Positions 1 through 58,083 of a stretch of 64,000 nucleotides of DNA are shown one piece after another. Below the pieces are notes generated by a model, which was not told where the DNA came from, did not search any database, and saw nothing but the letters and a program-made list of their open reading frames with translations. Where the stretch lies: the NCBI RefSeq assembly GCF_024170465.1, contig NZ_JALJYF010000001.1, positions 558,001 to 622,000 of the forward strand, in the 5' to 3' direction. Origin of the DNA: Natronospira proteinivora (GTDB taxonomy: Bacteria > Pseudomonadota > Gammaproteobacteria > Natronospirales > Natronospiraceae). The position numbers and the translations under genes are program-made. The stretch's first letter is position 1, and each line of letters begins with the position of its first letter.

Positions 1-896
1 AGAAACAGTCCCCCGCCCAGGAAAGCCGCCTGGGCGAACAGCGCCAGAACACAAGCCGCCACAAAGGTCCGGTTTCGAAACAGGGCCGGCGGCGCAAAGG
101 GCCGGGGGGAATAGCGAACATGCCGGGCAAAGGCCAGACCGCTTAACACGGCAATCAATAACGGCCCCCAGGTTTTCGGCGAGGCCAGGCCCGATTGCTC
201 AATACCGGTCACCCCCAGCAAAAACGAACCGGCACTCAGTGAGATGAACAGCCCACCGGCCAAGCCGAAATCCCGCAGCGTGCCCTTGGCCCGTTCACTG
301 GGGTCGGTATCCGGCATATGCCGATAGGCCGCCCCCGCCAGTATCACCAACAGGCCCAGCGTGCCCAGAAACAGCCATTGCCAGCCCCCCAGGCTCACCA
401 CCACGCCACCAATAATGGGCCCGGCCGCCGCCCCGATCCCTACACTGGAGACCACCGTGCCAAAGGCCTGCCCGCGCTGTCCTGCTGGAAACAGCCGAGT
501 CACCGAGCCCAGGGCCAGAGCCGGAATCGCCGCCGCCCCCGATGCCTGCAATACCCGTCCGCTCACCAGCACTCCGAAATTGGGGGCCAGGGCGCACAGC
601 AGGGAACCGCAGGCAAACACCGCCAGGGCCACCAGAAACGTCAGCCGCAGGCTCACAAAATCCGTAATCCGCCCGTACAGGGCTGTACCCACCGCAAAGA
701 CCAGGGCATAGGCGGTAATAATCCAGCCAATGGCACTGGCCGAGACCCCCAGATCTACCCGGATCTCGGGAATGGCCACATTGATCATGCTGTTATTGAG
801 CACACTGACAAACACCGCCAGCGCCATAATGACCAGCAACGCCTTTCCCCTGGCCCGGCTCGCACCGGCCCCCTGTGTCTGATCATCGCCCGTCAT
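1..896 (-). CDS. MFS drug-efflux transporter, DHA2/14-TM type (C-terminus beyond window)
   Basis: Reading leftward from the ATG at 894-896, the frame stays open to the edge of the window, giving the first 298 residues. After a short polar N-terminus there are regular hydrophobic helices: TM1 carries LNNSMINVAIPEI, and the loop between TM2 and TM3 has YGRITDFVSLR, the MFS motif A position. TM5 has GAAAGPIIGGVV, resembling motif C of drug:H+ antiporters. The protein probably exports small hydrophobic compounds across the inner membrane; the substrate cannot be read. It lies downstream of the integrase gene in the same direction with about 210 bp between them, so it is probably transcribed separately. 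It is not a cassette. Confidence 0.85.
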   Translation of the reverse strand, partial: MTGDDQTQGAGASRARGKALLVIMALAVFVSVLNNSMINVAIPEIRVDLGVSASAIGWIITAYALVFAVGTALYGRITDFVSLRLTFLVALAVFACGSLLCALAPNFGVLVSGRVLQASGAAAIPALALGSVTRLFPAGQRGQAFGTVVSSVGIGAAAGPIIGGVVVSLGGWQWLFLGTLGLLVILAGAAYRHMPDTDPSERAKGTLRDFGLAGGLFISLSAGSFLLGVTGIEQSGLASPKTWGPLLIAVLSGLAFARHVRYSPRPFAPPALFRNRTFVAACVLALFAQAAFLGGGLF

Positions 897-1108
897 GAAG
901 GCCTCGGCTTGATGGGGCAGAAGACCAAAAGCAGGAAACCATGGCCCGGGCCCCGAAGGATGGAATGCGGTAAAACAAACCCATTTTAGCAGCCAGCTCC
1001 CGTAACTCGAAATTCCACCCCAAAACGACTAGGCTTGAACAAGCGCCAAAGAATCACCGCACAAGGAGCCGTGCCATCCAGCCCCAGCCCCCCATACCCG
1101 GCCAGCAC

Positions 1109-2080
1109 TCAGCCACCTCCCAAGGGGCTGCGCACCCCGGCAAAACCGCTGCCCAGCACATGGGTGTAAATCTGGGTGGTCTTCACATCCGAGTGCCCCA
1201 GCAGCTCCTGAACGGTGCGCAGGTCCGATCCCCGGCGCAGCAACTCCGTGGCAAAGCTATGCCGAAAGGTATGACAACTTGCCGGTTTGCTAATACCGAC
1301 GGATCGGATCGCTTGCTTCACCACCCGCTGAATCGCACTGGGATGGATGTGGTACCTCACCGCGCAACCATCGTCATCACTGCAGATGGAGCTGGAGGGG
1401 AAAAGCCACTGCCACGCAAAGCTGGTGCCCGCATTCGGATATTTTCTCGCCAAGGCAAAAGGAAGGCTGACCGGGATCCGCTTCTCTTGGGGTACCGCTT
1501 GGAAGTGCTGGCGCAGATCGGTGATTCGGCACTCGAGCGATATAATCAAGGGTTCCGGCATCAGGGTCGTGCGATCCTTACCCCCCTTACCGTCCCGGAC
1601 AGTGATAACCCGTCGGGAAAAGTCGAGATCCTTAACGCGGAGCCGGGCACATTCGGTAACCCGCAACCCGGCGCCATACAGCAAGGAAACCATCAAGCGG
1701 TAAGGATCCGGTACCTCCCGAATGATGGCCATCGCCTCCTCATGACTCAGCACCACTGGCAGCCGGGCCTGGCGCTTGGCCCGTGTCACGGCGCCAATAT
1801 CGCCCAATGGCCGATCCAGGACCTTGGCATAAAGAAAGACCAAAGCATTCAGTGCCTGGTTTTGGGTGGCTCCCGCAACATTTCGCTCCGTTGCAAGCCA
1901 GGAAAGAAAGGCCCGAACCTCCGGCTCCGCCATCTCATTGGGGTGCCGCATATTGTGAAAACGAATGAAAAAGCGGATCCAGTACCAGTAAGTTTTCTCG
2001 GTCCGGCGGCTGTACCGCCGCAAGCGAATCACACGCCGAACCTGCTCCCTCAACCGCGGTTTCCCGTCCCTGTGACTCAT
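1109..2080 (-). CDS. intI: Integron integrase (site-specific tyrosine recombinase)
   Basis: Recombines attI with attC sites of gene cassettes. The 323-residue protein has the tyrosine recombinase catalytic set in order: R140 (GAGLR), the lysine of the beta-hairpin near 165, H270-x2-R273 (HTFRHSF), H296 (LLGHSD) and the nucleophile Y305 (TQIYTH). The segment 211-228 (ARKYPNAG...WQWLFP) is the extra patch that separates integron integrases from XerC/D. An open frame continues upstream to 2233, but the ATG at 2080 has a GGGAGG ribosome site 6 bp before it and gives the usual IntI length. It is transcribed away from the cassette array, the normal integron layout. No sul1, qacE or Tn402 genes are near, so this is a chromosomal rather than a class 1 integron. 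It appears intact and therefore possibly active. Confidence 0.95.
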   Translation of the reverse strand: MSHRDGKPRLREQVRRVIRLRRYSRRTEKTYWYWIRFFIRFHNMRHPNEMAEPEVRAFLSWLATERNVAGATQNQALNALVFLYAKVLDRPLGDIGAVTRAKRQARLPVVLSHEEAMAIIREVPDPYRLMVSLLYGAGLRVTECARLRVKDLDFSRRVITVRDGKGGKDRTTLMPEPLIISLECRITDLRQHFQAVPQEKRIPVSLPFALARKYPNAGTSFAWQWLFPSSSICSDDDGCAVRYHIHPSAIQRVVKQAIRSVGISKPASCHTFRHSFATELLRRGSDLRTVQELLGHSDVKTTQIYTHVLGSGFAGVRSPLGGG

Positions 2081-2105
2081 GCGAACCTCCCTATCCACTC
2101 GAAAG

Positions 2106-2121
2106 CTGTATGGATATACAG
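2106..2121 (-). promoter_or_regulatory. LexA (SOS) box of intI
   Basis: CTGTATGGATATACAG fits the proteobacterial LexA consensus CTGT-N8-ACAG exactly. It lies immediately downstream of the predicted -10 element and 26 bp before the intI start codon, a position where bound LexA would block transcription. LexA control of integrase genes is established for several integrons; here it is inferred from the site. Confidence 0.9.
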
Positions 2122-2122
2122 T

Positions 2123-2152
2123 ATTATTGGCGGAGACAGGAGCTGCAGTCAA
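2123..2152 (-). promoter_or_regulatory. Predicted intI promoter
   Basis: On the minus strand TTGACT (2147-2152) and AATAAT (2123-2128) are separated by 18 bp, matching a sigma-70 -35/-10 pair. The LexA box follows directly, which supports the assignment. Confidence 0.65.
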
Positions 2153-2229
2153 GCGAATACAGGGGATGAGGGTATGCGCGGTGTTAAGCGATTGAAATCT
2201 GGAGAAATTAAGCCGTGACCTCCCAAGAA

Positions 2230-2297
2230 TCACTGGAAAGTTATACTGCAGGCAAGTTCATTCAATATCCTTGCCTGCAATCTAATCACTGTTAAAC
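2230..2297 (+). other. Candidate attI site
   Basis: GTTAAAC at 2291-2297 fits the integron core GTTRRRY and is the first such core to the right of intI, about 210 bp from its start codon, as expected for attI. Cassettes would insert between G2291 and T2292. Just left of it is a 10-bp inverted repeat (TGCAGGCAAG at 2247-2256 and its complement at 2270-2279). The integrase binding sites cannot be assigned by eye, and the genes directly to the right are eroded, so the site is tentative. Confidence 0.45.
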
Positions 2298-2405
2298 GGG
2301 CCAGCGAGATCGGGCGGTTTCGGTAGCGCCAAGAGGTCGGGATTGGACGTAGGCGCTTTGTGGAAAGCGCCCAGAAAGGCACGGGAATTTGCCCCCGGAT
2401 GTGTT

Positions 2406-2591
2406 ATGCGCGATGCAATCACAACTGGTTTGATATTCGCTTTGATGCTGATATTGGGGCCCGTGGATCCGCAGTGGTATCACTGGCTGGGCGTCGTCGG
2501 GCTATCCATTCTCGTATTCTTCGTAGGGGATACAGGGCCCGGAGGTGGTGGAGGGGCCGGCGGCGGCGATGGTGGCGGAGGTGGGTGTTAG
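2406..2591 (+). CDS. Small membrane protein with glycine-rich tail
   Basis: This 61-residue protein has an N-terminal hydrophobic helix (TTGLIFALMLIL), a second one (WLGVVGLSILVFF), and a C-terminal tail made almost only of Gly with a few Asp/Ala and a final Cys. The ATG at 2406 was chosen over an upstream in-frame start at 2343 because it begins just before the first membrane helix. No family is recognised. It is the first open frame after attI and has no recognisable attC behind it. It may be a small membrane gene or a residue of an eroded cassette. Confidence 0.45.
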   Translation: MRDAITTGLIFALMLILGPVDPQWYHWLGVVGLSILVFFVGDTGPGGGGGAGGGDGGGGGC

Positions 2592-2831
2592 CTCTGTCGA
2601 GCATCGCTCCCGACGCGGCTGCCTGGCGAGGTCATTCTGGCGACATACATGGAGCCTTATGGTCTGAGCTGCCGCTATTTGGCCGAGCGGCTGGATGTGT
2701 CGCCATCTACTTTAAGCCGGGTTCTGAAGCAGCAGAGCGGTGTTAGTCCGGAAATGGCGTTGCGACTGTCGAAGGCACTAGGTCGTACGCCGCAGAGTTG
2801 GCTCGCAATGCAGGATGCTTATGACCTATTG
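2592..2831 (+). pseudogene. Remnant of HigA-type antitoxin (XRE helix-turn-helix)
   Basis: The frame reads LPGEVILATYMEPYGLS, then a helix-turn-helix (LAERLDVSPSTLSRVLK), then SPEMALRLSKALG and SWLAMQDAYDL. This is the HigA/VapI order and closely parallels the intact HigA at 16578. The usual start region (M-x-NPPHPGE) is missing: a TAG stop lies directly before it in frame. The C-terminus runs straight into the start of a DUF3024 frame. No HigB toxin gene is adjacent. It is best read as a leftover of a toxin-antitoxin cassette; translation from an internal ATG at 2649 would lack part of the fold. Confidence 0.6.
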
Positions 2832-2836
2832 AGCGT

Positions 2837-3124
2837 GTGGTTTCCGGCTTTATGGACCGGAAGCGCCCGCCGCCGCACATACGGCCAAAGCTGGACCTGG
2901 GGTACCGAATTGAAGGGCAAAGCCTGGAGCTATTCGAAATACGTCCGTTCTGGGCGGATCCTTCGCAAATTATGGAATCGGCAGTCGCGAAAGCGACCTA
3001 TGTAAAGCGGACCGGGCGATGGAAGGTCTATTGGCAGCGGGCGGATTTTAAGTGGCACCGGTACGATCCCGATCCGGAAGTAGGTTCGATTGAAGATGTT
3101 CTGAAAGTGGTGGAGGCGGATTAA
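2837..3124 (+). CDS. DUF3024-family protein, N-terminally eroded
   Basis: The residues PPPHIRPKLDLGYRIEG, LELFEIRP, then VAKATYVKRTGRWKVYWQRA and WHRYDP are the hallmark blocks of the small DUF3024 family, whose function is unknown. The frame can be followed six codons further upstream to a TGA at 2822, where the HigA remnant ends; the normal N-terminus is therefore missing and a GTG at 2837 is the only start available. Length is 95 residues, slightly short for the family. It could still be translated, but the junction with the HigA remnant suggests a deletion that fused two cassettes. Confidence 0.5.
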   Translation: MVSGFMDRKRPPPHIRPKLDLGYRIEGQSLELFEIRPFWADPSQIMESAVAKATYVKRTGRWKVYWQRADFKWHRYDPDPEVGSIEDVLKVVEAD

Positions 3125-3288
3125 TATGCCTGCTTTTTCGGTTGAAACAGACTGCAATTCGCCTGACGCCGCTCCAGGCCTATTTGGGCCTGCGCCAGCC
3201 GGGCTTTCCGCTCCGCTTCAAGCTCGCCGCTCAGATCAGAGGTATCGCTTATCTTGAAAACCCGAAGTTTGGGTAGTGGTCGAGAGAC
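3121..3288 (-). pseudogene. Possible C-terminal fragment of a coiled-coil protein
   Basis: On the minus strand an open frame of 55 codons without a start codon reads ...SGELEAERKARLAQAQIGLERRQ... before a TAA at 3121-3123. The heptad-like Leu/Ala/Glu/Arg pattern looks like real coding sequence for a coiled coil. With no start and no recognisable family, it is given only as a possible gene tail left by a deletion. Confidence 0.25.
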
Positions 3289-3290
3289 TT

Positions 3291-3584
3291 ATGGACGCCG
3301 ATCAGAAAAAATCGAGAGCCACGCTGCGGCTGTTGCTTGCTGGCGTCGGAGTTGCGCTTGCCGGGCTGGTCGGTTGGAATGAGGGTGTTGGCGCTGCGTT
3401 TACGGTCCTGTTGGTTATGGCCCCCTTGCTATTGTTCGGCTATTTGCTTCTGGGTCGGTTTGCTCGTTGTCCGTCCTGTAGAGAGCCGTTTGCGCTTGAG
3501 CCCGGAGAACAAGGAGCTCTGTTGACGACGCACACTTGCCGATATTGCGGTCACCAAGTCGAACGTATCAATGGCGGTCGCTAA
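3291..3584 (+). CDS. Small membrane protein with C-terminal zinc ribbon
   Basis: This 97-residue protein starts with a charged segment (MDADQKKSR), followed by two adjacent membrane helices (LLLAGVGVALAGLVGW and FTVLLVMAPLLLFGYLLL) and then a soluble C-terminal ribbon with two Cys pairs, CPSC and CRYC, spaced about 26 residues apart and likely to bind one zinc ion. The ATG at 3291 is preferred to a GTG at 3276. It precedes the esterase gene by about 40 bp and may be co-transcribed with it. The family is not recognised. Confidence 0.6.
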   Translation: MDADQKKSRATLRLLLAGVGVALAGLVGWNEGVGAAFTVLLVMAPLLLFGYLLLGRFARCPSCREPFALEPGEQGALLTTHTCRYCGHQVERINGGR

Positions 3585-3626
3585 GTTTGGGGCTGTTTCT
3601 GATGGTTGGGAGAAGGATGTGCTGCT

Positions 3627-4838
3627 GTGAGTTCAAAGCATTGGATCAGATTGGTGGCATCGCTGCTTTATATGTCTGCCGCAGCGGCGCCCATGGCTCA
3701 GCCCGCCCATTCTGTGGGTGCCTTTGATGAATTTCTCGCGCTTTACGAAGATGCTGCCCCAGACGAAAGGCGATCGCTCGCAGAATCCTTTATTGCGGAT
3801 CAGCAGGCCGCTGGCGGTTTCCCCATCACCCCTGGGAATGGCGAAGCCATCTTTTTCTACCTTGCCGATTCCGAGACCGAGTCCGTCCACTTGCGGGGTG
3901 ACTGGCTGCCCCGCAATACGTCCACCCCTTATTGGTCGGAAACCGGCCAGGCCATGGTTCGAACGGGCAATCTCTTTCATGCCCGGGTGCAGTTTGAACC
4001 GGATGCGCGCCTGGACTATGCATTCCTCATTGACGGCGAAACCCGGCCAGACCCGAACAATCCCAGGCGCTTGTTCAGCGGGGTAGGGGGTGGGGTCGTC
4101 TCCGAACTGCGCCTGCCGGCCCATGAGCGCCCTGATTATCTGGATACGCTGTCTGAACCGGGTGACATCCCCGAATCACGCCTGATTTCCCTTGAGCAAG
4201 ACTGGGTGGGGCCTGCCATTTCGGTATACTTGCCACCCGGATACGACAGGGCCAATCGTTACCCTGTGCTCTATACCGCCGACGGCAGTGCTTGGCTCGA
4301 TCTGATCAATCTCCCCGGTATCCTGGATGCCCTTATCAAGCGGGAAGCGATCCAGCCCGTCATCGCGGTGATGATCGATGCCCGTACCGATCGCCGCCAC
4401 TGGTACCAGTACAATCCCGACTATTTGGATTACCTGGAAACGGTCGTCCATTTCATCGATCGGGAATACGCCACCAAGGCCGACCCGGAGCATCGGATCC
4501 ACGCCGGCACCTCTGCCGGCGGCCGCGCCGCGCTTTATGCCGGTCTGGAGCGCCCGGACCTCTTTGGCCGGCTGGCGCTCCTGTCCCCATCGCTCACCGG
4601 GCCCATTCACTACCTCGCGCCATTTTTCAGCCAGCAACGCCTGCCTGACACCAATCTCAAAATCTGGTTGAGCGCCGGAAGCTATGAGGGCAACATCCAC
4701 AAAGACGCCAAGATCCTGGAAGCCTATTTTGAAAATAGCGACATAGCGATCGAAGCCATCTACCCCCACCAAGGTCACAGCTTCGGCGCCTGGCAGGAGC
4801 AAAGCGACCAGTTTCTACGCTATTTTCTGGCGGAATGA
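3627..4838 (+). CDS. Exported esterase of the enterochelin esterase (Fes/EstD) type
   Basis: The 403-residue alpha/beta hydrolase begins with a signal peptide (basic start, then LVASLLYMSAAAAPMAQ), so it acts in the periplasm or outside. Residues 35-180 form the N-terminal beta-sandwich typical of Fes-like enzymes (VHLRGDW, YAFLIDGETRPDPNNP). The catalytic domain follows, with RYPVLYTADG, the nucleophile elbow GTSAGGRAAL, and the histidine near the end in HQGHSFGAW. It may hydrolyse siderophore or carbohydrate esters; substrate unknown. The GTG at 3627 follows AAGGA by 9 bp and starts the signal peptide neatly; a TTG at 3606 is a less likely alternative. GC-rich codon use resembles the chromosome rather than the cassettes. 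Confidence 0.8.
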   Translation: MSSKHWIRLVASLLYMSAAAAPMAQPAHSVGAFDEFLALYEDAAPDERRSLAESFIADQQAAGGFPITPGNGEAIFFYLADSETESVHLRGDWLPRNTSTPYWSETGQAMVRTGNLFHARVQFEPDARLDYAFLIDGETRPDPNNPRRLFSGVGGGVVSELRLPAHERPDYLDTLSEPGDIPESRLISLEQDWVGPAISVYLPPGYDRANRYPVLYTADGSAWLDLINLPGILDALIKREAIQPVIAVMIDARTDRRHWYQYNPDYLDYLETVVHFIDREYATKADPEHRIHAGTSAGGRAALYAGLERPDLFGRLALLSPSLTGPIHYLAPFFSQQRLPDTNLKIWLSAGSYEGNIHKDAKILEAYFENSDIAIEAIYPHQGHSFGAWQEQSDQFLRYFLAE

Positions 4839-5084: not shown

Positions 5085-5183
5085 TCATAACACCGGGAGG
5101 GGTAGTCTCAGGTTCCAATTGTAAGTTACTGATTAGGGGAAGGGTATTCGGATTGAACCGCGATCGACGGGCGAGTGTTATGA
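5085..5183 (+). repeat. Degenerate attC-like site left of the first clear cassette
   Basis: TCATAAC (5085-5091) and GTTATGA (5177-5183) are perfect complements and extend to 9 bp (TCATAACAC/GTGTTATGA). The 99-bp spacing is acceptable for attC, but the inner L''/L' pairing is poor. The whole 420-bp stretch 4839-5259 has no credible gene; it holds this site, the hairpin at 5184-5216 and a possible core GTTATAA at 5229. Confidence 0.4.
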
Positions 5184-5216
5184 GGAAGTCACGTTTATTC
5201 AATCATTGTGACTTCC
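5184..5216 (+). repeat. 9-bp inverted repeat (hairpin)
   Basis: GGAAGTCAC (5184-5192) and GTGACTTCC (5208-5216) are perfect complements around a 15-base loop. No T-run follows, so it is not a plain terminator. It lies between an attC-like site and the start of the OLD nuclease gene. Confidence 0.6.
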
Positions 5217-5259
5217 GCCTAATCAGCTGTTATAACCTTTTAGATTCTGGAGATAGATT

Positions 5260-7026
5260 TTGCCAGAGGTGAGAATAAGCTCAATAAAATTTAAAAATTT
5301 CAAAGCACTGAGCAATTATTCTGTCTCCTTGAGCGAGACAAATATATTGGTCGGTCCGAATAATGCGGGAAAGTCAACGGTTATTAGTGCCTTCAGAATG
5401 CTGGATGTCGCCCTCCGGAAAGCAAGAAGGCTTCGGGCTGAACGGGTTCCCCTTCCTAATGACAGCGTCGGGTTTGGTCACCGCGTTCCAGAACAACAAA
5501 TCAGCGTATCGTTAGAGAACGTAGCTACAAACTACAATGATGAAGACAGCAGTATTGAATTTCGTTTAACAAATCGAAATAAACTATTTCTTTATTTCCC
5601 CAATGAAGGGGGGTGCATTCTACACTGGCAAACCGTAGGACAACCAGTTACTACGCCAGGGAGATTCAGGAATTCTTTCCCGGTTGTAATTCAGGTGGTG
5701 CCAGTTCTGGGCCCTCTCGAACATGAAGAGAAATACGTTAACGAAGATACTGTAAAAAATTCCCTTAACACTCATAGAGCTTGCCGACATTTTAGAAATT
5801 ATTGGCATTATTTTGATGAGGGCTGGGATGAATTCTCAGAAATGATTTCATCCACATGGCCTGGTATGTCCATGTCACAACCCGAACTGGATACGGCTAA
5901 CAGAAAGCTTGATATGTTTGTCAGCGAAGATCGACTTGATCGTGAAGTATATTGGTCTGGGCTCGGCTTCCAGATTTGGTGCCAATTGCTGACGCATTTG
6001 TCGAGAGCCAATGAAGCGAGCATCGTTGTAATAGACGAGCCAGAAATTTATCTCCATCCAGATGTTCAAAGACAACTTTTGAGTATTCTTAGAAATCTTG
6101 ATGCCGATGTTCTTTTGGCAACTCATTCTGTTGAAATTATGGGGGAAGCTGATCCATCTGAGCTACTTCTAATCAACAAAGCTTTTCGATCAGCTAGGAG
6201 GCTTAGAGATATTGAGGGAGTTCAACTTGCCCTTGAGTCATTAGGGTCAGCTCAAAATATTACATTGACACATCTTGCACGCACTAAAAAAATCCTCTTC
6301 GTCGAAGGTTTAAACGATTATAAAATCATAAGAAGATTTGCAAAGAGTATCGGCTTTAGTGAGCTATTTTCAGGAAACGATGTTACAGCTTTTGAATCAG
6401 GAGGTTTTTCGTCATGGGAGAAAATAAAATCGTTTGCTTGGGGTGTAAAAAACACGATTGACGCAAAGATGAAGCTGTTTGCGGTTTATGATCGCGATTA
6501 TTACTGCAGTGACGAAATTGATGATATTTTGAGCAGCCTTCAGGCAGAATTAACTCATGCTCATATCCATCGTAGGAAAGAAATTGAAAATTATTTTTTA
6601 GTTATTCCGGTATTAGAGCGAGTTTTAGATAAACAAATAGATGCTAGAAATCGGAGGTCCGGCGAAAATATAGAGGTTAAAAAGGGAATCGTCGACTATT
6701 TGTATGAGATTACAGAAGATCTTAAACTGGAGGCTCAGTCTCAATATATAGGAAAACGTATTGCCTATCATCAAGGTAGTGGTAAGGACGGCGGAACAAT
6801 CAGTCATGAAGCGATTAAAGTATTTGAAGAGCTATGGAGCGATATTAACTCACGAATGGAGATTGCTCCTGGCAAGGTCACGCTGAGGAGTTTACGTGCT
6901 AAGGTACAAGACGATTACAACGTTAATTTATCTGATGTCCAAATTATTGACGAATTCGATTTGGCAGAAATTCCAGAAGACCTCCGCAGCCTGATTGATG
7001 ATCTGGAAGCATTCCGTGCTGGATAG
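5260..7026 (+). CDS. OLD-family ATP-dependent nuclease (ABC ATPase + TOPRIM)
   Basis: The 588-residue protein starts with an SMC/RecF-like ATPase domain: Walker A GPNNAGKST at 32-40, Walker B VVIDEPE near 259 and the H-loop LLATHS near 288. A TOPRIM nuclease domain follows, with FVEGLND near 349 (acidic residue 1) and VYDRDY near 411 (DxD pair). OLD proteins cut DNA under ATP control, and several act in phage defence (P2 Old, GajA of Gabija, retron-linked OLD). The start is TTG at 5260, preceded by GGAG 9 bp upstream. AT-rich codon use differs from the chromosome. It is the first gene of the clear cassette array, ends in attC 7027-7104, and is followed by a reverse transcriptase cassette. There is no UvrD-like helicase beside it, so it is not Gabija. 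Confidence 0.85.
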   Translation: MPEVRISSIKFKNFKALSNYSVSLSETNILVGPNNAGKSTVISAFRMLDVALRKARRLRAERVPLPNDSVGFGHRVPEQQISVSLENVATNYNDEDSSIEFRLTNRNKLFLYFPNEGGCILHWQTVGQPVTTPGRFRNSFPVVIQVVPVLGPLEHEEKYVNEDTVKNSLNTHRACRHFRNYWHYFDEGWDEFSEMISSTWPGMSMSQPELDTANRKLDMFVSEDRLDREVYWSGLGFQIWCQLLTHLSRANEASIVVIDEPEIYLHPDVQRQLLSILRNLDADVLLATHSVEIMGEADPSELLLINKAFRSARRLRDIEGVQLALESLGSAQNITLTHLARTKKILFVEGLNDYKIIRRFAKSIGFSELFSGNDVTAFESGGFSSWEKIKSFAWGVKNTIDAKMKLFAVYDRDYYCSDEIDDILSSLQAELTHAHIHRRKEIENYFLVIPVLERVLDKQIDARNRRSGENIEVKKGIVDYLYEITEDLKLEAQSQYIGKRIAYHQGSGKDGGTISHEAIKVFEELWSDINSRMEIAPGKVTLRSLRAKVQDDYNVNLSDVQIIDEFDLAEIPEDLRSLIDDLEAFRAG

Positions 7027-7104
7027 GTATAACCATTGGCTGCACAGCGACCGATTTTCCGCCGCTTCGCGGCTCCAAACCGGCGCGTGAGCCCGGCGTT
7101 ATAC
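7027..7104 (+). repeat. attC site of the OLD nuclease cassette
   Basis: R'' GTATAAC (7027-7033) pairs perfectly with R' GTTATAC (7098-7104). The 78-bp interior has the GC-rich imperfect palindrome typical of attC, centred on CCGCTTCGCGG. It follows the stop codon directly. Confidence 0.9.
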
Positions 7105-7123
7105 GGAAAGGTGAGGCAAGTTG

Positions 7124-8713
7124 ATGACTCTAGATGATGCGATAGAACTCAGTATAGCCAACCTGTCTTGCCATGGATTGAGTGATATATCGGACGCCAA
7201 TCTCGAAAAGGCATTGATGGAGCGGTTTTCTGACAGACTGCATGAAAGCGTACGAAAAAGCTTGAAGAAAGATAACGTCTACGAGATGGAGTTTAAGCCC
7301 GCGCAGTATATGCTTTCTCCAAAGAATCGATATATTTTCGACTATAGAAAAGCGGCGATTATAGAGCCCGAGTGCCTCGTAAAGTATACAGCGCTTGTCC
7401 TTATGGCGGCGGAGCAAATAGAAAATAACCGAATTCCGGTGTCGGAAAAAGTCGTTTTTTCGGCAAGATATATGCCGCAGTCACCAGATCTATTTAATGC
7501 CGACGTGAATTATTCCTCTTGGCGCGAAAGGACTAAAGAGCTCGCTGAGTCTAGTGACTGTGCATTTATTGTTTCATGTGATATTGCAGCATTCTACGAT
7601 AGGGTTAATATTCATAGGGTCGAGTCTACATTAGATAGCATTGGCGTCGATCAAAAAGTAGTTAAAAAGATCAATGATCTACTGTTGTTCTGGTCGAGAA
7701 AGGATAGCTACGGGTTGCCGGTTGGGAATGCAGCTAGCCGAATTCTTGCGGAAGCAGCTCTTATCGATATAGATCAATATTTGTTAAGTGAAAATATAAG
7801 ATTCACAAGATACGTTGATGATTATAGGCTTTTTGCGCCAGACATCGTAACTGCGCAGAGATGGATGAATAAGTTGAATACGCGGCTATTCCGTGATGGG
7901 TTAATGCTTAACACCGGAAAAACGAGGTTGGCGAAGGCCAAGAAATCTGAAGATGGTGAGGTGACCGAAGGCGATGATAGTGACGAGGAGGCGGCTGAAC
8001 GTGTTTTGAAAGAGGTAACCAAACTAACCGGCGGCTATAACAGGATTGCTCGTCGGTTCATAATGCCTTCTGAGGATAAGCATCATCTGTTTAAGGCAGT
8101 CGAAATTGATGCCGAAATCGAGTCCCTAATGGATGAGGCGATCATTGAGTTCAGAGGGGTTCAGCAGCTTGTTATAGCATGTCTAGTGCAAAAGAGCTTC
8201 AGTAAGTTAATCCAAGTCGCTGAGCTTTGCTCTAGATATATGTATAGCCTGGATTACTTTGTTGATATGCTTCTTAAGAACAAAGCGTTCATTCCGGTGG
8301 AGCAGCGCGATGAAATAGCGGATTTCTTCGCCAGGTTGTCCATGGATCGCGAGTTTTATTCATTTGAATGGCATCAGGCTAGCGTGGCGAAGTTGTTAAG
8401 CGACGACGCTTATTTTCGTAAGAATGCTCTGATAGAGATTTTTCGTTCTTCCAGCAAGGACATGCCCTCGTATCCCTCGGTCGTCGCATTAGATGGTCTC
8501 GAGGGGAGAATCACGAGGTCTGAGTTTAGAACTATGCGGGAGTGGTTCGACCGTTGTGATGATTGGGAAAAGCGGCGGTTGATGCGGTTGTCGAACTCGC
8601 TGCCTACCGACGAACGTAAGGCCTGGGCTCGCGCGGTCAGGCCATCGATACGAAACGATGTGCTTGGCGGGGAATTTTCGAAGGTGCTGGCTAATGGCAA
8701 AGACCCAGTCTAA
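7124..8713 (+). CDS. Reverse transcriptase, DRT/Abi-like, with C-terminal helical domain
   Basis: The 529-residue protein has the RT motifs in order: a conserved N-terminal block (DYRKAAIIEPECLVKY, 73-88), motif A CDIAAFYD with D153, motif B GLPVGNAAS (197-205), motif C YVDD at 230-233, and LNTGKT shortly after. An acidic linker rich in Glu/Asp follows (about residues 275-292). The remaining 230 residues are helix-rich with no second enzyme motif, which resembles the HEAT-like C-terminal half of Abi and 'unknown group' RTs involved in phage defence. Retron-specific signs (VTG motif, msr/msd RNA) and group II intron maturase domains are not seen. The ATG at 7124 follows GAGG by 7 bp. The gene fills one cassette between two attC sites. 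Function in phage resistance is inferred. Confidence 0.85.
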   Translation: MTLDDAIELSIANLSCHGLSDISDANLEKALMERFSDRLHESVRKSLKKDNVYEMEFKPAQYMLSPKNRYIFDYRKAAIIEPECLVKYTALVLMAAEQIENNRIPVSEKVVFSARYMPQSPDLFNADVNYSSWRERTKELAESSDCAFIVSCDIAAFYDRVNIHRVESTLDSIGVDQKVVKKINDLLLFWSRKDSYGLPVGNAASRILAEAALIDIDQYLLSENIRFTRYVDDYRLFAPDIVTAQRWMNKLNTRLFRDGLMLNTGKTRLAKAKKSEDGEVTEGDDSDEEAAERVLKEVTKLTGGYNRIARRFIMPSEDKHHLFKAVEIDAEIESLMDEAIIEFRGVQQLVIACLVQKSFSKLIQVAELCSRYMYSLDYFVDMLLKNKAFIPVEQRDEIADFFARLSMDREFYSFEWHQASVAKLLSDDAYFRKNALIEIFRSSSKDMPSYPSVVALDGLEGRITRSEFRTMREWFDRCDDWEKRRLMRLSNSLPTDERKAWARAVRPSIRNDVLGGEFSKVLANGKDPV

Positions 8714-8786
8714 CAACCGGCTCCACAAGGACGGCGAGCTCTCCGCTATGCTCCGAGCCCGCCGCCTGTGAGCCGTGACGTTATGC
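8708..8786 (+). repeat. attC site of the reverse transcriptase cassette
   Basis: R'' GTCTAAC (8708-8714) overlaps the RT stop codon and R' is GTTATGC (8780-8786). The interior contains complementary GC-rich arms (GGCGAGCTCTCCGC ... GCGAGCC type) over 79 bp. Confidence 0.85.
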
Positions 8787-9265
8787 AGAGTGCTATGGAA
8801 GAAATGCTAAACATTAATCCAATCGGCAATAAAGTTTTTAAAGCTCTTAGTCGTTTTTTGGAGCAAGATTTTGAATTGCTGGAAATAGACGCGAATGAGC
8901 GCACATTGACTCATAGGGTAGCGATCTATCTACAAGATCTGTTTCCTGACATGAATGTAGATTGTGAATACAATCGTGATGATCATGACCCAAAGGATAT
9001 GTTTCTTCCGGGTGGGGACGGAGATGTTTACGACACTGATGCTCAGACGGTTTACCCAGACATTATCGTCCATAGACGTAAAACCGGTGAGAATTTGTTG
9101 GTTATGGAATTCAAGAAGACCTCATCAAGAGTCGATGACAAAAAAGACTTCTTGAAGCTTCGTGAATACAAAAGCCAATTACATTATCACTACGCCATAT
9201 TTGTAGAATTTGACGTCGGGTGTTTATCTAGTGGCGTCACTCGAGTTGAGTGGGTAAATGCATAA
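8783..9265 (+). CDS. PD-(D/E)xK nuclease-like cassette protein
   Basis: This 160-residue protein has TLTHRVAIYLQDLFPDMNVDCEYNR near the N-terminus, then YPDIIVHRR and, 10 residues later, NLLVMEFKK. The order (E in the first helix)...PD...(x)ExK matches the PD-(D/E)xK nuclease core. Similar short proteins occur alone in cassettes and phage-defence loci; whether this one cuts nucleic acid is inferred. The first ATG (8783) lies inside the R' core of the preceding attC, so the start codon would be supplied by the recombination site; ATG 8795 or 8804 are alternatives. It follows the reverse transcriptase cassette. Confidence 0.65.
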   Translation: MQSAMEEMLNINPIGNKVFKALSRFLEQDFELLEIDANERTLTHRVAIYLQDLFPDMNVDCEYNRDDHDPKDMFLPGGDGDVYDTDAQTVYPDIIVHRRKTGENLLVMEFKKTSSRVDDKKDFLKLREYKSQLHYHYAIFVEFDVGCLSSGVTRVEWVNA

Positions 9266-9677: not shown

Positions 9678-9742
9678 CCAGTCACTGCACCGGATGCCAA
9701 TTCCGCTCACGCTTCATGCCACCGGTGAGTTCAACGTTGGGA
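9672..9742 (+). repeat. attC site
   Basis: R'' TTTTAAC (9672-9678) overlaps the stop codon; R' GTTGGGA is at 9736-9742. Arms CACCGGATGCC and GCCACCGGTGAG pair within the 71 bp. Confidence 0.8.
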
Positions 9743-9753
9743 GAGGTAAGCTC

Positions 9754-10911
9754 ATGGCAATATGGTCAGCGTTGATACTGGCTGCTGGGACAATAATAGC
9801 AGCGGTATGGCTACGGCCGGTGCTTTGGTATCGCACGCTTCATGAAGCGATTAATGACCAGTTGGAGTCTCGCAGACGCCATAATGCCAAGCTGCAAGCT
9901 TATGTCAAAGACATAATGCGATCGCTTGATCAAACTTCGAATAACACAGTTCTCAATAGGCCGTCTTCGCCCAATGATTATTCGGACTCGTTAAAGCTAG
10001 TAGAGGGAGCACTTGATCGCGCTATTGGGTGCAACGAAGCGGTGGCGACATACTGTGTTCTTTTCGAGCGGACTCTATCTCCATTGCGAAGGGCGCCTGG
10101 CTCCAATAGCCAGCCGAACCTCGTATTTGTGAATTTGCACTATTACTTGTCACGCGGGGCGGCCACAATTGAGAATGCAGCTTCCAATTATATTGAGCTC
10201 CCGGACAAGTTAAAAGTAGGCCAATTTAACCCGATACGAAAGAATCTTCGCGGGTTTGTTGGGAAGTCGAGACTTAAGCATGTCCCGGGCTTAAGTCGTG
10301 GCCTGGATATTTCACCGCTTTCACCTTACGTTCTAGACTTTTACGCGGACGTTATTTCTCGGACATTTCGGGATAATCCAGAGTTTTTTCGTTCCTTCTT
10401 TCAGGTGATTGGGGATAACGCCCTGATGGGAGTGATCTTGTATCAGCAAGGCTTCTATTATCCACTGACAATCAAACTGCCCCCGATCCCTCTCTTTGGG
10501 CAGTATGACGGCCTTTTGATTGGCTTCAAGCTGCAAACGCATTTTAGTGAAGAAGGGGGGCGGCCTGAGGTCGTACTCTATTATTCTCACCTGAGTTCAT
10601 CTGCCAATTTTATGGCTGGATACGCTAAGAATGGGAGTGTGCAGCAATCATTTGTCGATACGAATCTGTGTCCACAGTTTGACTTCAAGTCCCATATTAG
10701 AACTGTTGAGTACGTAACGGACGAAGTCGTGGCCGTATATATTTCTCAGAAGTCTGGTGAGGACGCATTTGAGTTATGCAGGCCTTCCCTGCAGGATTGG
10801 CTTATTAGGAAGGCCGGTCGGTGGTGGCCAAAGGAAAAGGCTCAGATTTGGCTAACCGATCGCATTCGGCGTCGACCTGCGCTTTCGAGAATCCTCGGTA
10901 TCTCTGAATGA
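9754..10911 (+). CDS. Membrane-anchored orphan cassette protein
   Basis: The 385-residue protein has one N-terminal membrane helix (WSALILAAGTIIAAVWL, about 4-20), a charged coiled-coil-like stretch (LHEAINDQLESRRRHNAKLQ) and a large soluble region with no motif I recognise. The aromatic-rich part 225-290 (FFRSFFQVIGDNALMG, VLYYSHLSSSANFMAGYAKNG) suggests a folded beta domain. ATG 9754 follows AGAGG by 8 bp; the open frame begins earlier at 9694, inside the attC site, and was not used. It occupies a full cassette. It may act at the cytoplasmic side of the membrane next to the putative defence cassettes; function unknown. Confidence 0.7.
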   Translation: MAIWSALILAAGTIIAAVWLRPVLWYRTLHEAINDQLESRRRHNAKLQAYVKDIMRSLDQTSNNTVLNRPSSPNDYSDSLKLVEGALDRAIGCNEAVATYCVLFERTLSPLRRAPGSNSQPNLVFVNLHYYLSRGAATIENAASNYIELPDKLKVGQFNPIRKNLRGFVGKSRLKHVPGLSRGLDISPLSPYVLDFYADVISRTFRDNPEFFRSFFQVIGDNALMGVILYQQGFYYPLTIKLPPIPLFGQYDGLLIGFKLQTHFSEEGGRPEVVLYYSHLSSSANFMAGYAKNGSVQQSFVDTNLCPQFDFKSHIRTVEYVTDEVVAVYISQKSGEDAFELCRPSLQDWLIRKAGRWWPKEKAQIWLTDRIRRRPALSRILGISE

Positions 10912-11011: not shown

Positions 11012-11545
11012 ATGGCACATCCATTGAAAGTAGGGAAGTCAGTGAGATCAGGGCCTGGCATATTGCTGGAAAGGCCTGATCTTGCGGCCCAAATTGGAAG
11101 TATCTGTGCTGACTGGGCAAGTCTTGAGGATGGCTTAGCGAGTTTCTACGCTCATTTGATGGGGATATATCTTCCCTCTATTCCGGGTTTTGAACCACCA
11201 ACTCATCCAGTTGCATTCCAGATTTTTGATGAGGTGCAAACTATTCATTCACGAGTGCAACTGGTAAAGAAGCTGGCTGAGTGGGCCATCAAGGACGAGG
11301 ACTTAAAAAAGCGTGCTGTGGACATTCTTGATAAGGTGAAAAAATCAGGAAAGGGTAGAAACAAGATTGCTCACGCAGTTTGGGGTATCTGTGATGAAGA
11401 ATCCGACGCGTTAATATTGTTGCCGAACTTCGGGTCCCAAATGATATATAAGCTTAATGACTTCAAAGAAATTGCAGAACAAATTTATGTTTCAAAAGCG
11501 GAGCTTGGGAAAGTTCATCATGAATTTTACAAAAGCCGTAAATGA
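11012..11545 (+). CDS. HEPN-like cassette protein (R-N-x3-H motif), first of three
   Basis: The 177-residue protein is mostly helical. The first helix region (IGSICADWASLEDGLASFYAHLM) and the later VKKLAEWAI are followed by GRNKIAHAVWG, where R116 and H121 match the R-x4-6-H signature of HEPN domains; these are often RNases of toxin-antitoxin and abortive infection systems. No second domain is visible. ATG 11012 lies 8 bp after the R' core. Its neighbours in the next two cassettes carry the same motif. Assignment as an active RNase is inferred; non-catalytic HEPN-like helical bundles also exist. Confidence 0.6.
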   Translation: MAHPLKVGKSVRSGPGILLERPDLAAQIGSICADWASLEDGLASFYAHLMGIYLPSIPGFEPPTHPVAFQIFDEVQTIHSRVQLVKKLAEWAIKDEDLKKRAVDILDKVKKSGKGRNKIAHAVWGICDEESDALILLPNFGSQMIYKLNDFKEIAEQIYVSKAELGKVHHEFYKSRK

Positions 11546-11548
11546 AAG

Positions 11549-11608
11549 CCCTAACAAGTGCGTCAAAGGCGACGCTCGTGCCTCGCGCGCTTTACGCGGG
11601 CGTTAAGC
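11549..11608 (+). repeat. attC site
   Basis: R'' CCCTAAC (11549-11555) and R' GTTAAGC (11602-11608) bound a compact 60-bp site with arms GGCGACGCTCG and CGCGCGC/GCGGGCG. Confidence 0.8.
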
Positions 11609-11617
11609 AGGAGGCGT

Positions 11618-12412
11618 ATGTCCAAAGCACACAAGCCGAAAGCACCGGACTGGGCGCTTTCGCCACTCGAAGAATTTTTGAACCGGAGCGAGCATTTGGC
11701 GACCGTGGTTAGGCTAAGCGTCCAGGGCATGAGTATGGCTAAGGCGTTACCAAAAGCCATGGAAGCGCTGAGGCGCGCAGATGGAGAAAACTTAGATGCT
11801 GAGTTACACGAAAAGGCAGTTCGCGATGCCGAATTTGTGGAGAAAGAACGATCAGAGGGCTTCCCAGTTGTTCATGGGCAGGCAGTGCTTTCACTCTGGT
11901 CTCTCCTCGAGCTTGCAGTTAAAGACCTGGTTGCCGCCTGGATAAAAAACAATCCAGATCTCCTGCTTGCCCCACCGATTAGCAGCCTGAAAATGAAGAT
12001 TGGTGATTACCTTATGATTGAAGAGGATGAGAGGTGCCTGTTTTTTGTAGATGTTATTGAGCGGGATGTTGGGGCCGGAATTAAGAATGGTATTAATAGA
12101 TTCGAATCGCTCACTAGTACTGTGGGATTATCAGGGGTGACTCCCCGGAAAATGAATGAAATCTTCTTTGAGTTCGGCCAAGTGCGGAACGCGCTAGCAC
12201 ATCAAGGTAATCGGGCAGACAAAAAGCTCATAACCAATTGTCCATGGCTTGACCTCGAAGCGGGAAAGGATTTGCGCATAAGTTCGGAAATGTTCCAAAA
12301 GTATCATAAGGTATCATTAACATACGCGACTCTATTGATTTGCCGCACTGCGGAGCGCTTTGGGGTAGATATGCAATCCGAGAGGGAAGGGTTGTTTGAT
12401 GCCTATGCTTAA
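11618..12412 (+). CDS. HEPN-like cassette protein (R-N-x3-H motif), second of three
   Basis: The 264-residue protein has a Lys/Ala-rich start, a helical first half with the phrase VVHGQAVLSLWSLLELAVKDLVAAWI (about 84-109), and in the second half QVRNALAHQG, where R190 and H195 form an R-x4-H motif inside a predicted helix. The order 'helix with LxSLLE... then RNxLAH' is common in cytosolic HEPN/RiboL-PSP-like families. ATG 11618 follows GGAGG by 5 bp. It fills one cassette. Function unknown; RNA cleavage is a guess based on the motif. Confidence 0.6.
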   Translation: MSKAHKPKAPDWALSPLEEFLNRSEHLATVVRLSVQGMSMAKALPKAMEALRRADGENLDAELHEKAVRDAEFVEKERSEGFPVVHGQAVLSLWSLLELAVKDLVAAWIKNNPDLLLAPPISSLKMKIGDYLMIEEDERCLFFVDVIERDVGAGIKNGINRFESLTSTVGLSGVTPRKMNEIFFEFGQVRNALAHQGNRADKKLITNCPWLDLEAGKDLRISSEMFQKYHKVSLTYATLLICRTAERFGVDMQSEREGLFDAYA

Positions 12413-12499: not shown

Positions 12500-13375
12500 G
12501 TGCAATCAGCTATAGAACTCGCTAGGGTTGAAGGGGATAGCATAAAAGCAATTCGATCTTTGAATGACGAAGAAGTCCAAGAAGTCAGGGATTGCAATAA
12601 AGAAATATTCGATTTCAATAGACACTTCAAACTTGTCGAATATGTGCTCCACAATTTTTCATGCTTAAAAAACGGCGTTGAAGATGCGCTTCAAGAGTTT
12701 GCAGAAAGCTCTCATGCAATAGGCCGCTATGATTTAGACTCATTTGGTCATGAAGTAAACATTAACTTATTGAATCTGATGATGTCAGCGAGAACTTTTC
12801 TTGACCATATGGAGACTTTTATAAAAAGGGAGTATGGGAAAAAGTCAGAGCCTGTAGAGCTGTTCAAAAAATTAACCGAAGAAGAGTTCGATAGTAGGTT
12901 TTCATATAAATTTATGTATAAGCTTCGTAACTATGTTCAGCACTGCGGTATGCCTCCATTAAGTTATTCGAAGAGTAAAAGTTTTGACGAACAAGCCCCT
13001 TATGTTGGCATAACTCTAATGTTTGATAGAGATGCATTAATATCAGGTTTTGATGGTTGGGGGGCTATCGTTAGACCACAGCTAGAATCTCAAGATAATA
13101 AATTCGATGCATTCGGAATTATTGAAGAATTTGTTCTATCCATATTAAGAATATACATCCGCTTTTACGATGAAACAAAATTTCAGAAAACCCTTGAAGC
13201 TAGAGCACGAATAGCTGAGATCATCGAACAAAGTGAGGTATATTTTGAAGATGATTATTGCTTGTTCTGCGCATCAGAAAAAGATGGTGAAAAGGTAACT
13301 TTCAACATGTCTTGGATACCAGCATCGCTTTTTAGAAAAGTGGAGCATTACCTAAGACTGAGAAGGAAAATATAA
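12500..13375 (+). CDS. HEPN-like cassette protein (R-N-x3-H motif), third of three
   Basis: The 291-residue protein is rich in Lys, Glu and Phe. After a helical N-terminus it has LLNLMMSARTFLDHMETFIKRE (about 90-111) and then YKLRNYVQHCG with R143 and H148, again R-x4-H with Asn after the Arg. The C-terminal half (VGITLMFDRDALISG ...) is mixed alpha/beta and not recognised. GTG 12500 is preceded by AAGGAAG 5 bp upstream. It is one of the most AT-rich genes in the window. It differs clearly from the two preceding proteins outside the motif, so the three are not recent duplicates. Confidence 0.55.
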   Translation: MQSAIELARVEGDSIKAIRSLNDEEVQEVRDCNKEIFDFNRHFKLVEYVLHNFSCLKNGVEDALQEFAESSHAIGRYDLDSFGHEVNINLLNLMMSARTFLDHMETFIKREYGKKSEPVELFKKLTEEEFDSRFSYKFMYKLRNYVQHCGMPPLSYSKSKSFDEQAPYVGITLMFDRDALISGFDGWGAIVRPQLESQDNKFDAFGIIEEFVLSILRIYIRFYDETKFQKTLEARARIAEIIEQSEVYFEDDYCLFCASEKDGEKVTFNMSWIPASLFRKVEHYLRLRRKI

Positions 13376-13426
13376 CAAGCGCCTGCAAGGTGACGCGCAA
13401 GCGCGCACTTGAGGCGGGCGTTAGAA
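13370..13426 (+). repeat. attC site
   Basis: R'' ATATAAC (13370-13376) and R' GTTAGAA (13420-13426) enclose a 57-bp site with arms GCCTGCAAG / CTTGAGGC. Confidence 0.85.
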
Positions 13427-13436
13427 GGAGAAAGTT

Positions 13437-14261
13437 TTGGGGCAGTCGATAACTTCGCTGGAAGGTTTCATTCGAAAAATTCGGTATGTTCAACCCAAAG
13501 AAGATGAAGTACTCCTGTACCGGGGCCATGCAAAACGCCAGGGCCGAAAAGTGCACCCGTGGGTTCTTAGAGAAGAGGATCTCGCAGAGAAAGAGCACAA
13601 CATGATCAGGGAGATCATAGCCACTCATCCATCAGAGTTTGACCATGACACTACGGCCTTGGAGCGCCTCGCACGAGCGCAACACTACACTCTACCAACG
13701 AGGCTTTTAGATGTATCGTGGAATCCTTTGGTTGCACTTTATTTTGCTGTAAGTGGGCGGCACTCTGGAAAGCCAGCGCAAGTCATCGTATTTCGGGTCA
13801 AGAAGGACCATCTGAAATACTTTGATAGCGATGCCGTGAGTTGTATTGCCAATCTTTCCCAGTTGAAGAAAGCTGAGAAAGACAGTATCGATTTTAGTCT
13901 CCCAAATAATCAGTTCAACCAACAGGATGCTGTTGATCGCCTTCTACAATTTGTGAGGGCGGAGAAACCGCACTTTAGGCCTGAAATTGAGCCGAGTCAT
14001 TTGCAAAGTGTTTTTTGTGTAAAGCCAAAAATGAACAGCCGACGAATTCTCGCGCAGTCAGGGGCATTTATGATCTTCGGAATGACCGGCGATCTTGACA
14101 CGAATTCGGTTCCGGGCATTTCGATAGAGAGAATCAATATCAATGGTAATAAGAAGGATATAATCCTTAGGGAACTGGACCACATGGCTATCAATGACAG
14201 TACAATGTTTCCCGAAATCGACAAGGCTGCAAACTACATTCGACAGCAGTCATTCTTCTAA
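13437..14261 (+). CDS. FRG-domain cassette protein
   Basis: The 274-residue protein carries the FRG signature near the N-terminus (LLYRGHA, 27-32) and its second block LERLARAQHYTLPTRLLDVSWNP ... VALYFAV (about 80-105). FRG-domain proteins occur widely in accessory regions and many sit in defence or toxin loci; their biochemical activity is not settled. The rest of the protein has no recognised domain. TTG 13437 is the only start near the ribosome site AAGGAGAAAG. It is the last of a run of large cassettes before the small membrane protein. Confidence 0.75.
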   Translation: MGQSITSLEGFIRKIRYVQPKEDEVLLYRGHAKRQGRKVHPWVLREEDLAEKEHNMIREIIATHPSEFDHDTTALERLARAQHYTLPTRLLDVSWNPLVALYFAVSGRHSGKPAQVIVFRVKKDHLKYFDSDAVSCIANLSQLKKAEKDSIDFSLPNNQFNQQDAVDRLLQFVRAEKPHFRPEIEPSHLQSVFCVKPKMNSRRILAQSGAFMIFGMTGDLDTNSVPGISIERININGNKKDIILRELDHMAINDSTMFPEIDKAANYIRQQSFF

Positions 14262-14326
14262 CAAAAGGCTGTTGTCGGACGTACCTACGCTGGCGCTCCG
14301 GTACGCCGCAAAGCCAAGCGTTATGT
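14256..14326 (+). repeat. attC site
   Basis: R'' TTCTAAC (14256-14262) overlaps the stop codon; R' GTTATGT is at 14320-14326. Arms CGTACC / GGTACG pair near the centre of the 71 bp. Confidence 0.85.
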
Positions 14327-16288: not shown

Positions 16289-16567
16289 ATGATTCGAAGC
16301 TTCAAACACAAGGGCTTGGCGAAGTTCTTCAAGTCCGGGAGCACAGCAGGGATTCAGGCGGCTCATGCAAAGAGGCTTCGGCTGATTCTCGGTAGACTGA
16401 ATGCAGCATCAGACGCCAAGGATATGGACTTGCCAGGCCTTCGACTGCATGAGCTCTCAGGAAATCGAGCCGGAATTTGGTCAGTACCGGTGAGCGGTAA
16501 CTGGCGAGTGACCTTCCGGTTCGAGGATGGAGATGCCGAGATCGTGAATTACGAGGATTATCATTGA
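16289..16567 (+). CDS. higB: HigB-type toxin (RelE/ParE superfamily mRNA interferase)
   Basis: The 92-residue protein begins [14 protein letters not shown], followed by [24 protein letters not shown], and [29 protein letters not shown], which is the full HigB ('plasmid maintenance killer') pattern including the C-terminal histidine. HigB cuts mRNA at the ribosome and is held inactive by HigA, encoded 10 bp downstream in the same cassette. As with other integron toxin-antitoxin pairs, it probably helps keep the array from being lost. Confidence 0.9.
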
Positions 16568-16577
16568 GGTGTCGCCA

Positions 16578-16865
16578 ATGTTGATGCACAACCCTCCCCA
16601 TCCTGGTGAAGTATTGCGAGAGCTCTGCCTGGAACCCCTTGGCCTGTCTGTAACTGCGGCTGCGGAGGCATTGGGAGTAAGTCGCAAAACTCTGAGTGCT
16701 GTCCTGAACGGCAAGGCTGGTATTAGCCCTGAGATGGCGATTCGTCTTTCTATCGCGTTCGATACCTCGGCAGAAAGCTGGTTGAACCAGCAATCCCAGT
16801 ATGAGCTCTGGCATGCCGAGCAACATCGTAAAGATCTCAAGGTTAAGAAGCTTGTTGCCGCCTAG
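16578..16865 (+). CDS. higA: HigA-type antitoxin (XRE helix-turn-helix)
   Basis: The 95-residue protein starts [16 protein letters not shown], has the helix-turn-helix [20 protein letters not shown] and the conserved [10 protein letters not shown] ... [12 protein letters not shown]. It neutralises HigB and normally represses the higBA promoter. ATG 16578 is preferred over GTG 16569 because GAGG lies 8 bp before it and the N-terminus fits the family. It follows higB in the order typical of higBA, opposite to most other toxin-antitoxin operons. Confidence 0.9.
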
Positions 16866-57936: not shown

Positions 57937-57942
57937 GCGCGC

Positions 57943-58083
57943 CCTGATTAAGCAAACCACACACACGCCGACACATACGGCTGGGTGCCTCGGTTGCCGC
58001 TGACCCTTTCCGAGGGGCCTGCGGGGCCGAGGTTGTCGTATGGGGCGTGTGGAGGCCCAACCCTCAAAAACTGGAGAAAAGGT
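57943..58083 (+). promoter_or_regulatory. rpsB mRNA leader with hairpin
   Basis: The long leader contains CCTCGG (57990-57995) and CCGAGG (58027-58032) that can pair, enclosing further GC-rich pairs, followed by an unpaired stretch up to the GGAG ribosome site. In E. coli, ribosomal protein S2 represses its own operon through such a leader. The exact S2 motif is not confirmed here. Confidence 0.4.

Follow-up and report, generated by a model that had tools for sequence, protein, structure and literature searches.

A Drt8-clade reverse transcriptase without a nuclease partner, carried as a single-gene integron cassette in Natronospira proteinivora

An integron array with a reverse transcriptase cassette

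The window, the whole stretch of 64,000 nucleotides of Natronospira proteinivora DNA that was analysed, contains an integron array in which a reverse transcriptase (RT) gene is flanked on either side by attC sites of the same orientation, with an integron integrase gene in the same array (Table 1). The initial annotation had described the RT as a single-gene cassette, and this arrangement bears that description out. The start of the cassette, inferred from the GTT core of the preceding attC, is the crossover between G7098 and T7099. The cassette is 94% coding and contains only its leader, the ORF and its own attC, with a G+C content of 45.6%; outside the array, the chromosome has 58.3%.

Table 1. 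Coordinates of the integron and RT features in the window
Feature	Position	Strand	Description	Basis
intI, integron integrase gene of the RT-cassette array	1109..2233	-	TIGR02249 404 bits, cut-off 265	
attC of preceding cassette	7028..7104	+	AAC...GTT ends; near-perfect hairpin, -38.5 kcal/mol, 28 co-axial pairs	
RT gene cassette	7099..8780	+	1682 bp: 25-nt leader, ORF and attC	inferred crossover points
RT gene	7124..8713	+	529 aa; class 1 UG/Abi RT, Drt8 clade	PADLOC, tree, AlphaFold/Foldseek
RT-like domain (fingers and palm)	7124..7942	+	residues 1-273	
Flexible acidic linker	7943..8071	+	residues 274-316; holds Tyr305	pLDDT, alignment
Helical (alphaRep/HEAT-like) domain	8072..8692	+	residues 317-523	model
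attC of RT cassette	8709..8786	+	hairpin, -42.7 kcal/mol, 28 co-axial pairs; overlaps stop codon	

Hairpins resembling attC, with AAC and GTT ends, recur at many further gene junctions, up to about 20.7 kb. These sites were scored by their hairpins and against controls, the MAFFT alignment of attC being too poor for a covariance model. Under a strict criterion, seven sites were detected on the plus strand of the 18.5-kb array and two in the other 43 kb, while Markov controls of array size gave 0.15 sites on average; the thresholds were set after the sites had been viewed, so these figures are indicative. No strict attC precedes the gene at 5260-7026, upstream of which an inverted repeat near 5120-5240, recognized by eye, may represent a longer attC. 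Located several genes from intI, the RT cassette may be poorly expressed.

The intact ORF begins at the ATG at 7124 or the TTG at 7121, giving 529 or 530 residues, and an RBS-like GGTGAGG lies upstream of its start. In ATG numbering, the motif A aspartate D153 is encoded at 7580-7582 and YVDD (residues 230-233) at 7811-7822, and the motif B sequence GLPVG is present in the RT-like domain within SYGLPVGNAASR; all three motifs were found where the initial annotation had placed them. D153, D232 and D233 are invariant across the RT alignments. The protein matches PF00078 (RVT_1) with 47.5 bits (cut-off 29.6) and is the only RT detected in the 2.93-Mb genome.

Several neighbouring genes were also characterized. 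The product of the preceding gene (5260-7026) is an AAA ATPase of OLD/AriA-like type that probably includes a TOPRIM part (PADLOC AriAB, 94 bits; AAA_21, 83 bits), and an AriA-like ATPase, 23% identical, follows a Drt8-clade RT at another locus (L079). The protein encoded by the next cassette (8768-9265) is 165 aa long, carries a PD-(D/E)XK-like PDII...VMEFKK motif and matches PADLOC PD-Lambda-3_A (171 bits); a second gene of PD-Lambda-3 was not identified beside it. At 13437-14261, an FRG-domain protein matching the PADLOC candidate PDC-S15 (335 bits) occupies a cassette of its own, between attC sites at 13371-13426 and 14257-14326. Four cassette genes (9694-10911, 11012-11545, 11558-12412 and 12500-13375) have no significant Pfam match; the third weakly resembles RiboL-PSP-HEPN and the fourth a CARF-HEPN model, and all four are possible undescribed defence genes. 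Near the end of the array, two small adjacent genes (16289-16865) resemble by eye a HigB/HigA toxin-antitoxin pair, and elsewhere in the window an Rfam t44 RNA match was found at 57940-58061 (71.9 bits).

Family and predicted fold of the reverse transcriptase

The RT belongs to class 1 of the UG/Abi RTs and, within it, to the Drt8 (UG7) clade. The UG classes were reportedly defined by Mestre et al. in 2022. Among the PADLOC profiles, Drt8 scored 387 bits (E 4e-116) and the next family, UG21, 130 bits; Drt8 was likewise the PADLOC match for all 15 aligned relatives. In a maximum-likelihood tree of 40 rows, which did not include retron RTs, AbiK or AbiA, the RT falls in a branch of five members (support 100/99), which together with two deeper relatives makes a group of seven (100/99) nested inside the Drt8 clade (97/94). 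AbiP2, Drt4 and Drt6 join this clade next (90/94), apart from UG13-UG21 and from group II and DGR RTs, and the RTs of group II introns and DGRs form a separate clade (100/99). Several UG outgroups lie on long branches, and therefore the relations among the UG groups are weak and the Drt8 placement alone is firm. Profile, tree and model together sharpen the earlier reading of a UG/Abi-type enzyme to class 1 and the Drt8 clade. The accompanying claim that the protein has neither group II intron nor retron features held for group II by the tree and the lack of a maturase domain, and for retrons by profile and structure.

Close relatives with 56-60% identity across the alignment were identified in a Nitrospira MAG, a KSB1 MAG and a Caballeronia replicon, and a virus contig carries a 434-residue RT fragment of the same branch. 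A search of a phage collection returned no relative, nor did a scan of viral contigs with four close relatives; the same scan with a wider alignment recovered the virus-contig relative (L067). On that contig (IMGVR 3300011242_000040, positions 1-4302), the RT has a phage integrase gene and a phrog_1159 gene in its vicinity. The solo branch was present in 1 of 274 class-level genomes, namely that of the window, which gives only a rough prevalence. Zero sites meeting the strict attC criterion were detected at the loci of 10 relatives, and carriage by an integron therefore appears special to the window copy within this sample.

An AlphaFold2 model built from a 15-sequence alignment reached a pLDDT of 85.9 and a pTM of 0.85; it replaced a three-sequence model, dropped for its mean pLDDT of 51.7 in the RT domain. 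Both features that the initial annotation had described downstream of the palm are confirmed by the model. The acidic linker (about residues 275-308) is predicted to be disordered, with pLDDT under 50 at residues 275-292 and 300-308, and its length differs among relatives, while the C-terminal domain folds into 13 consecutive helices. Considered alone, and in an earlier model, the helical domain resembles alphaRep/HEAT proteins (3ltm, Z 11.2).

The comparison with experimental structures points to an Abi-type fold of the whole predicted chain, as had been proposed for the C-terminal part. In Foldseek, ranks 1-12 among PDB entries were occupied by DRT4, DRT6, UG15, AbiK and Abi-P2 (E 8.5e-13 to 4.9e-10), with matches spanning the RT-like and helical domains. 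VIA-align gave Z 21.1 against DRT6 (5.2 A over 446 residues), 18.5 against DRT4 (5.0 A, 440 residues), 17.2 against AbiK (5.5 A, 454 residues) and 15.9 against Abi-P2; for AbiK and Abi-P2 both domains are aligned end to end. For DRT2, DRT9 and group II RTs, alignment was confined to about residues 1-303. DGR and group II proteins match the RT domain by itself with Z values at least as high, so class 1 is indicated by the coverage of the full chain and not by Z.

Partner genes, noncoding RNA and modes of action

DRT8 is characterized by a PD-(D/E)XK domain (PMC12596737). In one Drt8 branch, sister to that of the window RT (L017, L018, L020, L069, L070 and L074), the RT gene is followed by an overlapping RTasPDDEXK gene, which bears a GD...ExK motif. 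Pfam finds no domain in RTasPDDEXK, which PADLOC recognizes. It was not found in the window, its genome, the Nitrospira and KSB1 genomes or the Caballeronia replicon, in a search that recovered the gene in the L020 and L070 records used as positive controls. The branch of the window RT, with its five members and two deeper relatives, lacks the partner of its sister branch. The RT was therefore classed as a solo representative of its clade and not as a complete DRT8 system, and the solo branch may behave differently from DRT8.

Other gene arrangements were observed around Drt8-clade RTs. In the KSB1 MAG (L011, 3990-5855), a gene located 84 nt downstream of a solo RT encodes a DUF2779 protein that gives weak Cas4-like matches and is possibly another nuclease partner. 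On a virus contig (L078, 3964-6013), the RT is followed by two genes on the same strand, the first of which PADLOC does not match; this may be yet another partner arrangement. The closely related RTs of an Aminobacter plasmid (L019) and of G239 (L023) have an upstream gene in common, of about 745 aa and 85% identical, which is a DUF87 protein in the Aminobacter record.

The class 1 DRTs that have been studied carry out template-free DNA synthesis, which is sometimes protein-primed (PMC13174585). AbiK and Abi-P2 have a helical domain in place of the thumb and need to form oligomers (PMC9508834), and DRT4 is a single-gene system with a random single-stranded DNA product (PMC13213688). The mechanism of DRT8 is listed as unresolved in two 2026 papers (PMC13213688, PMC13314766). 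We consider it probable that the solo Drt8-clade RT of the integron cassette works like DRT4, DRT6 and AbiK, most likely by template-free DNA synthesis in phage defence. The enzyme would be an oligomeric, thumb-less polymerase with the helical domain in the thumb's place, and it would make single-stranded DNA without a nucleic-acid template, priming synthesis on a protein tyrosine. Phage infection would then lead to synthesis, or to a build-up of product, that blocks either phage replication or, abortively, the infected cell. We infer oligomerization, untemplated synthesis, protein priming, the phage trigger and defence itself from the relatives; membership of the family and the other defence-like cassettes detected by PADLOC in the same array suggest the anti-phage role.

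The closest known systems share some traits with the window RT and differ in others. The DRT8 (UG7) RTs encoded with RTasPDDEXK, as in Sphingobium TomTYG65 (L020) and at a proviral locus (L070), belong to the same clade and share its Drt8 profile, length and linker tyrosine, but the L070 RT is only about 23% identical, and the window RT has no RTasPDDEXK and resides in an integron cassette. DRT4/UG15 and DRT6/UG12 (PDB 9vdo, 9l9s and 9wy8) are likewise single genes with the same whole-chain combination of RT-like and helical folds, whereas their identity to the window RT is 12-15% and they fall in a separate clade; template-free activity and a phage trigger would be attributed to the window RT by analogy with them. 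The RT-like and helical domains are also shared with AbiK and Abi-P2 (PDB 7r06 and 7r08). Integron-borne defence cassettes, reportedly described by Darracq, Kieffer and Getz in 2025 (as cited in PMC12409362), similarly place a defence-type gene in a single-gene attC cassette. Defence cassettes in integrons are already known (PMC12409362, PMC12444791), and the papers searched on them, which do not extend to the Darracq, Kieffer and Getz primary papers, make no mention of an RT cassette.

Alternatively, the RT could form a two-part system in trans with a PD-(D/E)XK nuclease encoded by the next cassette (8768-9265) or by another gene, which we regard as unlikely. In its favour are the overlapping RTasPDDEXK gene of the sister branch, the PD-Lambda-3_A match and motif in the next cassette, and the DUF2779 gene of the KSB1 relative. 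The gene at 8768-9265, however, belongs to a distinct cassette that has an attC to itself, its product is not RTasPDDEXK, and such a neighbour is absent beside the nearest relatives (L010, L012 and the L067 fragment).

Less probable still is an RNA-templated, class 2-like enzyme copying a defined noncoding RNA, for instance the transcribed attC or an RNA encoded within the ORF. The cassette has no space for a separate noncoding RNA, an Rfam search identified no family near it, and its noncoding flanks have nothing in common with those of the relatives, which also lack attC under the strict criterion. The partial alignment of the RT domain with DRT9, DRT2 and group II RTs and the strong structure of attC transcripts would be compatible with such an activity, but the helical domain matches class 1, while class 2 structures cover the RT domain only.

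The cDNA of a cassette transcript corresponds to the bottom strand of attC, which is the strand recombined by IntI. An RT located in a cassette array could thus serve the integron by converting cassette transcripts into recombinable single-stranded DNA, but this is very improbable, given that the close relatives lie outside integrons and that the modelled architecture is that of template-independent polymerases. A retron, group II intron or DGR-type RT, with which the protein has its core motifs in common, can be practically dismissed, given group II and retron St85 profile scores (51 and 37 bits) far under their cut-offs (300 and 235), the separate group II and DGR clade, the absence of a Pfam maturase match and the lack of room for an msr-msd or an intron.

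A conserved linker tyrosine and its implications

The priming residue of AbiK is Tyr44, located in a mobile loop (PMC9508834). Neither this N-terminal loop type of priming tyrosine nor the C-terminal tail type of DRT3b has a counterpart in the window RT, which speaks against a protein-primed mode of action: conservation of Y53 does not extend across the branch, and no tyrosine occurs among the final 79 residues. The conserved tyrosine lies instead in the palm-helical linker. It is Tyr305 (codon 8036-8038), in the motif LTGGYNRI, and its loop is predicted to be disordered, which parallels the mobility of the AbiK priming loop.

A linker tyrosine was present in all 24 Drt8-clade sequences collected first, about 35-43 residues after the motif-D lysine (50 in L068) and often as GY or PY. 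Seven further sequences of the clade, gathered after the hypothesis had been formed, all have it in the same setting (FDPYS, AGYGG, SPYED and others), with larger offsets where the linker is longer. Among sequences with identities under 50%, 16 of 19 carry a tyrosine inside one 9-residue window. When residues were shuffled within the linker, 0 of 2000 trials reached this number (the mean was 10.2 and the maximum 15), and tyrosine was the only residue type to stand out; only three of these 19 were fresh, so the test is not fully independent of the origin of the idea. UG20 sequences also have a tyrosine near the same place.

We propose as a hypothesis that Tyr305 is a candidate protein-priming residue, and the best such candidate in this RT. 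The broader proposal, that Drt8-clade RTs prime DNA synthesis on the palm-helical linker tyrosine and that the solo branch is a complete, self-priming single-gene defence polymerase, is tentative, and we hold it to be rather doubtful; the conservation could equally arise from contacts within the oligomer or with DNA. If true, the linker would be a third priming position besides those of AbiK, in the N-terminal loop, and DRT3b, in the C-terminal tail, and a self-priming defence polymerase would be movable as one integron cassette.

What is new here is a solo Drt8 branch without a partner, one member of which is an integron cassette, together with its linker tyrosine. Because DRT8 has no established mechanism, the solo branch is a simple entry point: a DRT8-type RT without a nuclease partner or a separate RNA, in a 1.7-kb unit, makes the polymerase studiable alone, and the linker tyrosine offers a single-residue test of priming. 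The same RT branch spans a Nitrospira MAG, a KSB1 MAG, a Caballeronia replicon and a virus-derived contig, and the cassette of N. proteinivora would add an RT-based system to the defence genes that can be shuffled by integrons.
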